From a virus, in IMG/VR virus record IMGVR_UViG_3300027573_000048, positions 1 to 48,313 of that record: a DNA stretch of 48,313 nucleotides. The stretch is one strand, 5' to 3'. Shown piece after piece: positions 1 to 48,313 of the stretch. A program made the position numbers and the translations under genes. Positions within the stretch are counted from its first letter, which is position 1, and each line of letters opens with the position of its first letter. The notes under the pieces were generated by a model. That model ran no database searches, had not been told where the DNA came from, and saw only the letters and a program-made list of their open reading frames with translations.

Positions 1-349
1 TTCTAGGAATTACAAAAACGGGCTTCTCTCCTTTTGTTTTTTCCGCTGCCGTCAGGTTTTCGATTTTTTCGCAATCGCTGCAAGAGCTGCAAGAGCTGCA
101 ATCGCTGCAATAGCTGCAAGAGCTGCAATAGCGGCAAGAGCTGCAATAGCGGCAAGAGCTGCAAGAGCTGCAATCGCTGCAAGAGCTGCAATAGCGGCAA
201 GAGCTGCAATAGCGGCAATAGCGGCAAGAGCTGCAAGAGCTGCAATCGCTGCAAGAGCGGCAAGAGCTGCAAGAGCTGCAATTCCAACATCCTTCGTTTG
301 TTTGGTTGTCTACTTCGTATCCGGGATTTGCACTAGCAAATTCCTGCGA
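1..349. repeat. Terminal redundancy, left copy
   Basis: This segment has the same length and flanking sequence as 47965-48313, so the window is a circular or terminally redundant genome that was opened here. The copies are not identical: they differ only inside the 9-bp repeat array, at 107-151 versus 48071-48115. The cut falls inside a minus-strand gene that runs from 421 through base 1 and on to 47669. Confidence 0.9.
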
Positions 350-421
350 CACCCCATTCAGAGTTTTATCTTCTCTGCCGAGAAATTCGATGTACGATTT
401 AAAAATTTGAGTTTTGTTCAT
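1..421 (-). CDS. Cys-repeat protein, N-terminal part (gene split by linearisation)
   Basis: The frame opens at the ATG at 421-419 and stays open to base 1, continuing at the right end to the stop at 47669. The joined protein would be about 238 aa. Residues 1-44 are an ordinary soluble segment beginning MNKTQIFKSYIEF. Cysteines follow at 45 and 48, then 23 units of (S/R)-(S/D/Y/R)-C fill residues 49-117. Cysteine therefore recurs strictly every third residue, about 25 times, always as TGC. No signal peptide is visible, so a cytoplasmic protein, perhaps metal-binding or a regular solenoid, is more likely than a disulfide-bonded secreted one; that is inference. A start motif TTAAAACTTCA lies 12 bases upstream of the ATG. 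Leucine-rich and Lys/Ser/Cys-rich frames are also open through the array, but only this frame joins to recognisable flanking protein on both sides. Confidence 0.85.
   Translation of the reverse strand, partial: MNKTQIFKSYIEFLGREDKTLNGVSQEFASANPGYEVDNQTNEGCWNCSSCSSCRSCSDCSSCSSCRYCRYCSSCRYCSSCSDCSSCSSCRYCSSCRYCSSCSYCSDCSSCSSCSDCEKIENLTAAEKTKGEKPVFVIPR
71..277 (-). repeat. 23-unit 9-bp tandem array, copy 1
   Basis: There are 23 back-to-back 9-bp units of plus-strand form GCANNNGCK, where NNN is AGA, ATC or ATA. Read on the minus strand each unit is a three-residue block ending in a TGC cysteine codon: SSC, SDC, RYC, SYC or RSC. Because the unit is 9 bp, gain or loss of units keeps the frame. 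Numbered from the left, units 5-9 read SYC, SSC, RYC, SSC, RYC here. The other copy has SSC, SDC, SSC, SDC, SSC at the same places. Confidence 0.95.
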
Positions 422-448: not shown

Positions 449-593
449 TAGAGGGAACAGGATTCGAACCTGCATATTTCTTTGGCTTCTGCTCTCCTGA
501 TTTTTGTGCAGATAAATCGATTATCCGCTCAGGATTTACACCATACCTTTTAACTGCTGCAGCAGTCGCGTTTACCAGTTCCGCCATCCCTCC
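449..593 (-). tRNA. Anomalous tRNA-like element (class II, Leu-like arms)
   Basis: On the minus strand, GGAGGGA (593-587) pairs with TCCCTCT (456-450) as a 7-bp acceptor stem with one G-T wobble, followed by discriminator A. A D-arm GCG/CGC with an 11-base loop containing TGGT looks like bacterial tRNA-Leu. A T-arm GCAGG-TTCGAAT-CCTGT is canonical apart from one wobble. The centre is abnormal. The expected anticodon arm is a 14-nt palindrome, ACTGCTGCAGCAGT, that leaves only a 4-6 nt loop. About 80 nt then precede the T-arm and contain nested hairpins (TCCTGA/TCAGGA enclosing GATAA/TTATC). No CCA is encoded. It could be a tRNA with an insertion, a pseudo-tRNA or a tRNA mimic; the anticodon cannot be assigned securely. 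It lies 27 bases upstream of the Cys-repeat gene. Confidence 0.5.
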
Positions 594-3164: not shown

Positions 3165-4112
3165 TTAATAATTATCATCATCAACAGTGATCCTGCTTTC
3201 AGAATTCTGATCACTGCTGCCGTTTGTTGTGGAAGAAAGGTCCTGAGCGTTGTGAGTGCCGTTACCGTTTGACGATTGCGCGATTTGATGTGAAGGCTCT
3301 GCCGGTAAAGCATAATCGATAGCTCCTTCTTCTTCTGTCGCTTCAAGTCTGGAGTAAGCTCCTTTGATATTTATTTTTGGATATGCCTTGAAAGAATGCT
3401 TGATGGTTTTTGCTTTCAGAAAACCTGAGTCGATTTGTCTGCCTGGTCCAGATGTATAAAGCGGATTTGCTTTTGAAAGATCACCGTTACCTTTGTTTTT
3501 ACGATCAGAATATTTCATCAGCCTTGCAATGTCCTCTTTCAAAAGCCATGTATAATCATACCCCCCGTCTTTTTTCAGAAGCTTTAAAAAACAGCCGATA
3601 ACTTCCTCCGTGTGACTGGCAATCATGGAATAATTCACGAATTTTTTCCCGTCCCTTTCTCCGCAGTCAAAAATGTCGCCCTTGTAAACTACAATAGGCT
3701 CCGATGCTCCTTCGAGCTGGCCAGCCAACTGACGAAGTCCGAGTTCACCATAAGGAGAGATTTCAAGGTTCGCACGCTTTTCCCATTGAGGATTTTCCCT
3801 TGTTCCCACATTTACATTTGCAGGCACCAGATAGCAGAGTTTTTTTGTTGGATCCAATGACAGGCCTTGAACTGCCATATCGATGAACGCACCATACAAA
3901 CTGACCTTTGAACATTTTTGTAGTTCCTGATTCTGGGAGAGATTTTTCTGGAAGTGGTATTTCTCCGTTTCATAGATCATTTCTCCCATTTTAGACCCGT
4001 GGACCTTATTGAACACGGTAATGAATTTTTCAGCCACTCTCTGATCTTCCGGAATTTTGGTTACCGCCAGACCATCTAAGAAGTTGACTGTTGTTTGAAT
4101 TGCTGTTGACAT
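3165..4112 (-). CDS. recT: RecT-family single-strand annealing recombinase
   Basis: A 315-aa protein with the RecT core at about residues 25-225. Diagnostic stretches are LSLDPTKKLCYLVPAN (about 84-99), the hydrophobic-glycine block ISPYGELGLRQLAGQ (about 118-132) and a KAKTIKHSF segment near 233. RecT proteins coat ssDNA and promote annealing of homologous strands. The last 50 residues are Ser/Asn/Gln-rich and end in an acidic VDDDNY tail, as in SSB-type interaction tails. It is followed by its helper protein and the RecE-like nuclease in the same operon. Confidence 0.92.
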   Translation of the reverse strand: MSTAIQTTVNFLDGLAVTKIPEDQRVAEKFITVFNKVHGSKMGEMIYETEKYHFQKNLSQNQELQKCSKVSLYGAFIDMAVQGLSLDPTKKLCYLVPANVNVGTRENPQWEKRANLEISPYGELGLRQLAGQLEGASEPIVVYKGDIFDCGERDGKKFVNYSMIASHTEEVIGCFLKLLKKDGGYDYTWLLKEDIARLMKYSDRKNKGNGDLSKANPLYTSGPGRQIDSGFLKAKTIKHSFKAYPKINIKGAYSRLEATEEEGAIDYALPAEPSHQIAQSSNGNGTHNAQDLSSTTNGSSDQNSESRITVDDDNY

Positions 4113-25025: not shown

Positions 25026-25220
25026 TTATGTTCCCTGCTTTCGCAGCTTGGCATACTGCTCGGATGTAAGGCTGGAAAGAAACCACTCCATACCTGTGGG
25101 TCCAAAATCACCGGCACGATTCATTTCTAAGGCTTTTTCATAAAGCTTTTTCAACTGCTCCATATCGTTTTCAGCGGCAGCAATCGCCACATCCTCTGCC
25201 AGCTTTTGAATCTCTTCCAT
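25026..25220 (-). CDS. Small acidic helical protein
   Basis: A 64-aa protein beginning MEEIQKLAEDVAIAAAEND, all-helical by pattern. It follows the MuF-zincin gene with 1-base overlap, in the head module. No function recognised. The 127 bases between it and the tail fibre hold no further ORF I can support. Confidence 0.6.
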   Translation of the reverse strand: MEEIQKLAEDVAIAAAENDMEQLKKLYEKALEMNRAGDFGPTGMEWFLSSLTSEQYAKLRKQGT

Positions 25221-27016
25221 TATTTGGCTTCTTTAATTGTTTTTAGATCGATACCGTATTCCTTTGCTGCACTTTCAAATAATTCGAATGCTTTAGGATA
25301 TAGCTTCTTAAATCCAGATCTGTTATAAATGTACGAAGAAAAGCTCTCAGACCAAAATTCCGACCAGTTGAACTGTCCATAAATGGTTGGGGCATCATCC
25401 AGTGTCACTTTCAACTTTTGAGCCAGTGCCTCCATCTTTTTGCGAGGCGCATCTTTGTGAGGAATTGGATCGTATTTATTGTGAATCAAATGTCCCATTT
25501 CATGCGACACAACAGGTGCTTTGTTGGTGGGATTAAGTATGCCGACAGACCACTGCTTTACCATTCCGGTATCATCAATCTTTGCAATAACCACACCTTT
25601 TTCATCAGCTATTACTCTGCCATGACGCCTGGAAATTGCCTCTCTGTATTTTGGAAATTCCTTCAGCAAGTCTTCCGAATCGGTCAAATTGAAAAGCTTT
25701 TCATTTGATTTGAACTCGATAGTATCTCCTGTTTTCACTTTAACAGAAACACCGCGATTGTCAATGAAACACGCCCCATCAGTATTTGAATCCATTTGTG
25801 GAATTGAACGAATGGGAGCTCCCACTTCGCTGGAGAATTTTACTATTCCATTAAGGTTTGCAGCATCGGTAGGTCTGACAATTGATACAGTGGTCTTAAA
25901 CTCATTAGCAATATCAGTGGCACCGTCTGCATTGTTGGTTACAGACTGAAGGTCATCATTGATTTGCTGCGGATGCTTCGAATAGAATTTCGCTTGTGTA
26001 AATTTCTTTTCTTCCTGTGCCGGCTGAGGATCCGGTTTTGGTGGTTCCGGTGGTTTTGGTGGTTGAATTGGTGGTTTTGGTGGAGGCGTTGGTGCTGGAG
26101 GGTTTCCAGCGATCTGATCCCTGAGATTTTTCGGCACTACCGCATCGGGAACTCCACCGAATTGGTGACCGCAATTCCATCCACCGCGACGCTGACCGAT
26201 ATTTGTTTCGTCAGTTTTATCGATCATTCCTGATGGCAGTCCGGTTTTTTTATTACAGGGAATATCAGATGAGCAGATCTTCACTCCATCGATGTTATCA
26301 AAAATCACAGTGCGAAGTTCCGACTGGTGCACATACTTTTTCTTTGCCATGTGAACGCACCAGGGCCGCGATGTTTCAAGGAGGCTTCCTGTGTACATGC
26401 GCCATTTGAATCCCAGATCCTGGCTGATCGTTTCATTGTAGTTTGCCGAAAACGTATTGATGGAAGTAACAGTATATGTTTTCAGGTGCTTTGATACGAG
26501 CCCGGGATTATCTGTAGTGGAAACAATCTGACTTTTCAGGCCGTCCAGAAGTGAAGCGTAGCTCCCTCCTTCGGTGATCGACCGCTGAATCATCTTCTGA
26601 ATAGGAGTTGTGATGTTTGTGTCCACACCTGATTCGGTGAGATCTGAGGCCGTCTGGCGAATTGCATCCTGCTTGACTGCCTTGAGTACCTTCGGGGCAG
26701 AGAAGTTCTCTACCATCGAAGAAAAATAACTATTCTGAAGTGTTTCTACCGTTGAGAATGTTTTCAGGAATTCCTTCACGTTGGACTTATACTTCGGAGA
26801 CAGGATGATTTTCTCGATCTCGGATTTCAGACTTGAAATCATCCGGATGTTTTCGCCCGTCATGGAAATTTTTCCTCCGGAGATTTTGAGCTCCTTGGTT
26901 AGATCCACAACTTTTTCATACACCTGCTTTTCGATTCCGGAAGCAGATTTTTCAAACCTGGCAACTGAATCTTCCAGCGTCTGTACAATTTTATCGAGCG
27001 ATTGCTGCGGGGTCAC
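25220..27016 (-). CDS. MuF-like head morphogenesis protein fused to a zincin metallopeptidase
   Basis: 598 aa from a GTG start that overlaps the preceding stop (GTGA). Residues about 1-185 are helical. Residues about 190-295 fit the MuF/SPP1 gp7 minor head domain: RMYTGSLLETSRPWCVHM is followed by GGWNCGHQFGGVP, the usual W-N-C end. A Pro-rich linker (about 312-335) joins a C-terminal domain with HEMGH (505-509), a zincin H-E-x-x-H, and likely third ligand E553 or E557 in SEFWSESFSSYI. Minor head proteins are carried in the virion, so the peptidase could be injected with the DNA or act in assembly. Confidence 0.82.
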   Translation of the reverse strand: MTPQQSLDKIVQTLEDSVARFEKSASGIEKQVYEKVVDLTKELKISGGKISMTGENIRMISSLKSEIEKIILSPKYKSNVKEFLKTFSTVETLQNSYFSSMVENFSAPKVLKAVKQDAIRQTASDLTESGVDTNITTPIQKMIQRSITEGGSYASLLDGLKSQIVSTTDNPGLVSKHLKTYTVTSINTFSANYNETISQDLGFKWRMYTGSLLETSRPWCVHMAKKKYVHQSELRTVIFDNIDGVKICSSDIPCNKKTGLPSGMIDKTDETNIGQRRGGWNCGHQFGGVPDAVVPKNLRDQIAGNPPAPTPPPKPPIQPPKPPEPPKPDPQPAQEEKKFTQAKFYSKHPQQINDDLQSVTNNADGATDIANEFKTTVSIVRPTDAANLNGIVKFSSEVGAPIRSIPQMDSNTDGACFIDNRGVSVKVKTGDTIEFKSNEKLFNLTDSEDLLKEFPKYREAISRRHGRVIADEKGVVIAKIDDTGMVKQWSVGILNPTNKAPVVSHEMGHLIHNKYDPIPHKDAPRKKMEALAQKLKVTLDDAPTIYGQFNWSEFWSESFSSYIYNRSGFKKLYPKAFELFESAAKEYGIDLKTIKEAK

Positions 27017-42473: not shown

Positions 42474-43143
42474 TGTTACGATTTGTTACTTTTTGGTTTT
42501 TAATTTTTTTTTCACCCCTAATCCAGTTCCTGACTGCTGCCTTCCAGTCTTCCATCGGGGCGTTTGATTTTCCGACCAGCCAGCCGTTGGCGGAATAATG
42601 ATCAAAAAATCCCGCGGCCAGATCTTTTATTTTTTCAACCTCGACTTCAACATTTCCTTCCAACAAAAAATTTTCAATTTCAATCACTTTTGGTTTTTTA
42701 AAAACAAAAAATCCTTTTATATTATCTTCTTTTCTTTTCTTTTCTTTTCTTTTCTTTTCTTTTATAGCGATACTTTTGCGATCACTTTGCGATTCACTTG
42801 CGACAGGTTTGGGATTTTCACCCCACCTTTTTTTGTTTCCATTTTTACCAGAAACGCTCCTTTTTTTGGAAATTTCGATGGCGGATTTTAACTGCTTTTT
42901 CAGGAAATCGATGGTGATCATTTTGCCATTGACCTTGATTATTTTATTATCAATAAGCTCCTGAAGCAGCGCCGGCTTTTCGAATTTTTTATTTATCTGG
43001 TCCAGGGATAGTTCACAATCGCGCTGCCAGTAAATCGCTTTGATGTTGGTGAATAATCCTTGCGCCTCGAGGCTGCAGAATTGTATGGAGCCGGTGAGGT
43101 ATTGCGCTGGTTCGAATTGGAAGTAAGGAAGCTCTTTAGCCAT
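42361..43143 (-). CDS. Replication initiation-type protein (Lin1244/DnaD-like)
   Basis: 260 aa. Residues 1-85 (PYFQFEPAQYLTGSIQFCSL) resemble the N-terminal winged-helix domain of phage replication proteins of Lin1244/Lin1753 type. A Lys/Arg/Glu-rich linker (about 126-140) coded by tandem AAAAG units joins a C-terminal helical domain (about 170-215, ending in a WKAAVRNWI motif as in DnaD-like tails). It probably binds the origin or loads the helicase. Overlap with the next gene is long. Confidence 0.65.
   Translation of the reverse strand: MAKELPYFQFEPAQYLTGSIQFCSLEAQGLFTNIKAIYWQRDCELSLDQINKKFEKPALLQELIDNKIIKVNGKMITIDFLKKQLKSAIEISKKRSVSGKNGNKKRWGENPKPVASESQSDRKSIAIKEKKRKEKKRKEDNIKGFFVFKKPKVIEIENFLLEGNVEVEVEKIKDLAAGFFDHYSANGWLVGKSNAPMEDWKAAVRNWIRGEKKIKNQKVTNRNNGTSNSSSEKCGAVAKGSLEQYMRRPIATKPSRDKGS
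42730..42763 (-). repeat. (TTTTC)6 pentanucleotide repeat in coding sequence
   Basis: Six TTTTC units plus TTTT. On the coding strand this is (AAAAG)n and gives the KEKKRKEKKRKE linker of the replication protein. The unit is 5 bp, so gain or loss of one unit would shift the frame; three units restore it. Confidence 0.85.
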
Positions 43144-47668: not shown

Positions 47669-48313
47669 TTAAGCTTTTTGCAATTTAGATTCCTCCTCGG
47701 CACAGCGCTTAATATCTTCCATCGCGTCCTCATTGTTTTTAAAGAATTGGTGCAGGTGAACTTCAACAGGACTGGATTCCCGGTAAATCAGCATTGCTGC
47801 GAAGGCTGTATCGGTTTTATCTTCCAGCTCCTTTCCTTCTTTCCCGGCCAGTACCGTAACCCATCCCGCACGGCAGTGTGTTGTGTCACAGGAATGCCAG
47901 CTTTCCATATTCAAAGCATCAGGTTTGCTGACGGCATCAAGAACTTTCTGGTGAATATTTTCAATTCTAGGAATTACAAAAACGGGCTTCTCTCCTTTTG
48001 TTTTTTCCGCTGCCGTCAGGTTTTCGATTTTTTCGCAATCGCTGCAAGAGCTGCAAGAGCTGCAATCGCTGCAAGAGCTGCAATCGCTGCAAGAGCTGCA
48101 ATCGCTGCAAGAGCTGCAAGAGCTGCAAGAGCTGCAATCGCTGCAAGAGCTGCAATAGCGGCAAGAGCTGCAATAGCGGCAATAGCGGCAAGAGCTGCAA
48201 GAGCTGCAATCGCTGCAAGAGCGGCAAGAGCTGCAAGAGCTGCAATTCCAACATCCTTCGTTTGTTTGGTTGTCTACTTCGTATCCGGGATTTGCACTAG
48301 CAAATTCCTGCGA
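47669..48313 (-). CDS. Cys-repeat protein, C-terminal part (gene split by linearisation)
   Basis: Open from the window edge through the array to the stop at 47669, continuing the frame that starts at 421. After the Cys array (48241-48035) come residues EKIENLTAAEKTKGEK and then a conserved domain: WHSCDTTHCRAGWVTVLAG, TAFAAMLIYRESSP and NNEDAMEDIKRCAEEE. I know this W-H-x-C-x-T-T-H-C-R-A-G-W signature from memory as a widespread phage and bacterial protein family of unknown function. Only the C-terminal 81 residues are preceded by a start codon in frame (TTG at 47914), so a start-based gene call would miss the rest. Confidence 0.85.
   Translation of the reverse strand, partial: SQEFASANPGYEVDNQTNEGCWNCSSCSSCRSCSDCSSCSSCRYCRYCSSCRYCSSCSDCSSCSSCSSCSDCSSCSDCSSCSDCSSCSSCSDCEKIENLTAAEKTKGEKPVFVIPRIENIHQKVLDAVSKPDALNMESWHSCDTTHCRAGWVTVLAGKEGKELEDKTDTAFAAMLIYRESSPVEVHLHQFFKNNEDAMEDIKRCAEEESKLQKA
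47965..48313. repeat. Terminal redundancy, right copy
   Basis: Second copy of bases 1-349. Outside the array the two agree base for base as far as I can read, while array units 5-9 differ. Equal length with different content argues against simple slippage in one lineage and for two variants in the sampled population, or for an assembly error. Confidence 0.9.
48035..48241 (-). repeat. 23-unit 9-bp tandem array, copy 2
   Basis: Same number of 9-bp units as at 71-277. From the left the units read SDC, SSC, SSC, SDC, then SSC, SDC, SSC, SDC, SSC at units 5-9, and agree with copy 1 from unit 10 to unit 23. In protein order the variable stretch is residues about 91-105. All cysteine codons remain TGC. 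Confidence 0.95.

Follow-up and report, generated by a model that had tools for sequence, protein, structure and literature searches.

A phage protein with cysteine at every third residue: a candidate solenoid rod in front of a constant C-terminal domain

The window analysed here (the whole 48,313-nucleotide stretch of the viral record IMGVR_UViG_3300027573_000048) encodes a protein in which unbroken x-x-C units stand between a conserved N-terminal module and a C-terminal domain with the signature WHxCxTTHCRAGW (PHROG 31265). We propose, with slightly less than even confidence, that it is a scaffold of the phage early region, built from the N-terminal module, a narrow and fast-changing solenoid rod of cysteine triplets and a constant helical C-terminal domain.

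Results

When the two ends of the contig are joined, the minus-strand frame encodes 238 amino acids plus the stop, with 28 cysteines, the count being identical with either copy of the end overlap. Both joins were checked for stop codons and contain none internally, and in both the strict cysteine period described in the sequence-only reading, 23 (S/R)-x-C units without interruption, was confirmed. Positions 47669-48313 of the minus strand alone yield 214 of the 238 residues with no join required; the left contig end is needed solely for the first 24 residues (MNKTQIFKSYIEFLGREDKTLNGV; 350-421, minus strand), a conserved module aligned in 12 sequences. The gene had been described as having no in-frame starts, which proved incorrect: there is an ATG at 421 (MNKTQIF...) and a second one further upstream at 475. 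The array, with 23 (S/R)-x-C units each 9 bp long, occupies 71-277 in the left allele and 48035-48241 in the right allele (both minus strand). It is preceded in each by EGC WNC (278-295 and 48242-48259, minus strand), which is extra to the 23 units. In the linker (47969-48034, minus strand) the sequence after the last cysteine is EKI ENL, in which I and L occupy the place of cysteine and the triplet phase is kept. The conserved C-terminal domain (IENIHQKV ... WHSCDTTHCRAGW ...), predicted to be all-helical, lies at 47669-47968 (minus strand), with the stop codon at 47669-47671.

On the plus strand the array gives a shorter cysteine-periodic shadow run of at most 13 units. Judging by sequence conservation, the minus frame is the array gene, because dozens of relatives conserve both the N- and the C-terminal domain in this frame, and because relatives write the S-x-C pattern with different codons (TCC/TCT/TCG/TCA or AGC/AGT for serine, TGC or TGT for cysteine). 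Annotation of a shadow frame, as suspected earlier, does occur. The Flavobacterium phage FL-1 locus (KY421186) has the same N-terminal module and C-terminal domain as the window and an array of 36 units, but unlike the window its true frame is interrupted within the C-terminal domain and it is annotated in the shadow frame: the GenBank CDS APZ82901.1 (MKLTMVVGIAPVASVAPIAP...; L001 3618-3962, KY421186.2 26567-26911) is a shadow frame of the homologous cysteine-triplet gene.

Positions 1-349 of the window match 47965-48313 except for eight bases, every one of them within the array. The two array copies are distinct alleles of equal length, differing by one cluster of eight changes (...RYC SSC RYC SSC SYC... 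versus ...SSC SDC SSC SDC SSC...). For 14 of 63 triplet proteins the contig ends upstream of the C-terminal motif at a distance of up to about 700 bp, in or near the array; for one of the 63 it ends at equal distance downstream. The phage contigs G005, G006 and G007 have the two halves of the gene, N-terminal and C-terminal, at opposite ends, and the ends overlap exactly inside the array by 81 bp (G006) and 127 bp (G007). Since contigs of relatives repeatedly break in or near the array, the ends of the window are best read as an assembly effect, and the window most likely represents a circular map, about 47,964 bp long, which the assembler opened in the repeat. The gene had been thought to span the genome ends; the pattern in the relatives indicates a contig broken in a repeat, not a biological phage end. 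G007 contains two paralogous cysteine-triplet genes (L332, L336, L358, L359), one of which is split by the contig ends.

The feature had been called rare, a description that does not apply to phages: a search of viral contigs and bacterial genomes found about 120 distinct arrays with the same cysteine period in phage and prophage proteins. Arrays were counted only if a recognised flanking module was present; the DNA-pattern scan of viral contigs returned mostly low-complexity shadow frames. The family has at least two types of N-terminal module, xTQIFxxYxxFLxREDKxxNGV...CWNC and WxxDxxGNxxSVEYFGSxEAAxxALxSLxNC, and other C-terminal contexts also occur behind the arrays, for example GSRNxxTTxYW...CGCFKG. 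Array length ranges from about 9 to 59 units, a few proteins retaining only about five. Pfam and NCBIfam hold no family for the window protein, and in PADLOC-DB it had no match to a known anti-phage defence system. PHROG 31265 matches the C-terminal domain (7e-28) and PHROG 15341 the array and its surroundings (3e-15), both annotated only as of unknown function. Our literature search found no paper on a phage repeat with cysteine at every third residue; PMC7379824 deals with unrelated eukaryotic cysteine-rich repeats.

In 122 arrays the third place was cysteine in 3420 of 3438 units (99.5%), a figure that leans high as the search pattern required runs of cysteine. The 18 other residues at this place were S (9), L (3), A (2), F, I, G and T. 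Histidine, aspartate and glutamate were absent among these 18, as were arginine, tyrosine and tryptophan, although the latter are one base change away from cysteine. In 62% of 105 proteins, L, I, V, M or F held the cysteine phase directly after the last cysteine; for the other two phases the share of such hydrophobic residues was 9% and 2%. Among the listed proteins with the second N-terminal type, 'xSL' or a similar triplet just before the first cysteine likewise puts leucine in cysteine phase. The small or hydrophobic replacements and the hydrophobic residue in phase past the last cysteine point to a cysteine place that faces inward, and speak for a buried core rather than a metal ladder.

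In the divergent arrays L212, L198 and L196 nearly every triplet differs and the cysteine is retained. This free variation of the other residues, together with the different codons used between phages, shows selection of the period at the protein level. The order of unit types within arrays is near random. No lag stood out when higher-order periods were sought, the largest deviations from shuffled unit order being about 3 standard deviations, and array length had no preference modulo 2, 3 or 4; the size of a coil therefore cannot be read from the arrays. Per unit, the arrays carry a mean net charge of -0.15; so slight a negative charge speaks against strong mimicry of DNA.

The conserved domain noticed in the sequence-only reading was substantiated by an alignment of 32 sequences in which 25 columns are invariant, among them W-H, C, H-C-R and G. 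AlphaFold2 predicted it as all-helical, mostly with pLDDT 84-97 and with a less certain stretch at 58-64. The same domain is found elsewhere behind pentapeptide repeats and behind 20-residue GVTSVGYVSLDSGATLTLPE, ALTSVGGxLxI and LSVGGWLDLSGTSITALPE repeats; alignment of two groups of the domain with hhalign gave a probability of 99.7% (E 6e-27). Several of the repeats preceding it are 19-20 residues long, and from their sequences we read these as probable solenoids. A variable linker parts the array from the domain in the triplet proteins, but not in the pentapeptide ones. As for prevalence in hosts, the domain is sparse in bacterial families, with counts of 3 in 222 genomes and 4 in 398. A relative of the domain (L349) stands behind a short DQIGGLS/YQIGWLS repeat, which adds a further repeat type to this slot, and one bacterial genome (G289) encodes two proteins sharing the domain (L352 and L353) with 12 versus 37 copies of the GVTSVGYVSLDSGATLTLPE repeat.

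Array length differs between near-identical contigs. L010 and L011, whose flanks are 100% identical over 10.4 kb, have 28 versus 25 units; L192 and L213 (flanks 99.9%) have 28 versus 16, and L197 and L226 (flanks 98.6%) have 30 versus 50. The two ends of the window, which differ only within the array, and the unequal repeat counts of L352 and L353 add to this picture. Arrays appear to be hypervariable and to change faster than the surrounding DNA, with the serious caveat for the triplet cases that the data are mostly metagenome assemblies, in which tandem repeats can be mis-assembled.

Upstream of the array gene lie a RecE-like exonuclease (PDDEXK DUF3799, PHROG exonuclease VIII; 1249-1896) and a RecT-like single-strand annealing protein (3165-4112), both on the minus strand. 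Across the join are an SNF2-type helicase and a cytosine methylase. The commonest neighbour cluster, found at 26 of 140 loci, is a YqaJ-type recombinase judging by its sequence, and YqaJ is the most frequent Pfam family among downstream neighbours. The RecT, exonuclease VIII and YqaJ neighbours place the array gene in the early recombination/replication region, and this gene neighbourhood lends support to a possible role in DNA metabolism or in countering host defence.

Directly upstream of the gene, at 449-593 (minus strand), there is a tRNA-like sequence (Rfam tRNA, 39.2 bits) whose anticodon arm carries a long insert. With ARAGORN it is detected only if introns are allowed, the program calling a 60-nt insert and Pro AGG; it may be an intron-bearing or a decayed tRNA. 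Elsewhere in the window, 25220-27016 (minus strand) encodes a head-morphogenesis-like protein (PHROG 324), to the C-terminal part of which the Pfam domain ATLF matches below threshold (E 2.6e-4; 21.2 bits, cut-off 27.4), and 42727-42763 is a TTCTT microsatellite of 7.4 perfect copies.

Discussion

A solenoid, one of the folds first suggested for the array, is favoured by these sequence comparisons as the most likely one. The best reason is that known or apparent solenoid types swap into the same slot in front of the C-terminal domain, and the burial evidence from the cysteine phase agrees with it. Structure prediction and structure searches weigh against it: AlphaFold2 produced no confident fold for the array in two runs (pLDDT 25-44 and about 30), no solved structure in the PDB matched it significantly, and the only good viral fold match was a 74-residue viral protein with 54% identity. 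The Tenebrio antifreeze protein is a narrow beta-helix with a small inward residue (C, S, C, A) at each third place. It (PDB 1ezg) ranked first among the PDB matches of the divergent array L198; E values for this protein were 0.027-0.13, not significant. In contrast to the array, it has cysteine at just half of the inward places, is secreted and disulfide bonded, and has a 12-residue coil; no period of its TCTxSxxCxxAx type was detected in the arrays.

Pentapeptide-repeat proteins, which are beta-solenoids able to mimic DNA and act on gyrase (reviewed in PMC10886550), offer a second analogy. Like the array, pentapeptide repeats (PF00805; MfpA, Qnr) are short, occupy the same slot in front of the same C-terminal domain and draw on few residue types where the side chains face outward. 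They differ in the unit, which has three residues with cysteine in the array and five with A-x-L in the pentapeptide proteins. The pentapeptide fold is a right-handed quadrilateral beta-helix, a shape looked for in the AlphaFold2 models of the array, which were of low confidence. A search for the A(D/N)Lxx units of PF00805 gave no Pfam match in the window protein, whereas the pentapeptide relatives do match.

A metal-thiolate array, in which CxxC steps bind Zn, Cu or Fe-S in the manner of a metallothionein or metal wire and buffer metal or sense redox, would explain why 99.5% of units keep the cysteine. The spacing of the array is indeed that of classic metal ligands, CxxC and CxxCxxC; photosystem iron-sulfur subunits are among the weak PDB matches (E 2-3), and the C-terminal domain holds a conserved H-x-C-x3-H-C pattern. 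This reading is nevertheless rather unlikely, as H, D and E never replace cysteine, hydrophobic residues in cysteine phase close the array, unit counts have no preference modulo 2 or 4, and the other repeats that occur in this slot are not known to bind metal. That the array is instead a disordered tail of reduced thiols, a flexible polar linker serving as redox sponge or spacer before the C-terminal domain, is unlikely. The very low AlphaFold2 confidence over the array and the wide range of array lengths would fit it, but a spacer needs neither cysteine at each third place nor a hydrophobic end in phase.

At the DNA level, serine and cysteine codons are near-uniform within one gene, so that the units look homogenised, and contigs frequently break in the arrays. 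Both would be expected of a tandem repeat that expands chiefly by slippage under little protein selection. Yet the same S-x-C pattern is encoded by different codons across phages, and divergent arrays retain cysteine while the other two residues vary freely. This reading was already disfavoured and we regard it as very unlikely.

Under the preferred solenoid reading, the array would be a very narrow rod with the cysteine of each unit turned inward to the core and the two polar residues facing outward, a counterpart of the pentapeptide-repeat beta-helix found in its place in relatives. Recombination would gain, lose and exchange 9-bp units with the cysteine frame preserved, so that both the length of the rod and the residues on its surface would shift quickly. 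The protein could then act as a variable binding rod carrying a constant C-terminal domain. For this function, binding is the best account our analysis offers, with the pentapeptide-repeat proteins serving as analogy. The retention of cysteine in nearly all units is stricter than a merely buried place usually requires, which hints at thiol chemistry. Taken more broadly, the constant C-terminal domain may be joined in phages to several unrelated hypervariable solenoids, including a new cysteine-core rod of three-residue units, reshuffled in surface and length within populations, and form a quickly diversifying phage binder system that relies on recombination of tiny repeats instead of a diversity-generating retroelement; we consider this wider proposal possible but on balance doubtful.

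The arrays explain why some complete phage genomes appear in the records as linear fragments; they also explain why the gene has been overlooked or annotated in the wrong frame. In a protein that is presumably cytoplasmic, cysteine at strictly every third residue would represent a new repeat fold or a new metal scaffold, and phages encode relatives often enough for expression and structure determination. One domain behind several kinds of repeat suggests that a class of modular phage proteins has been overlooked.
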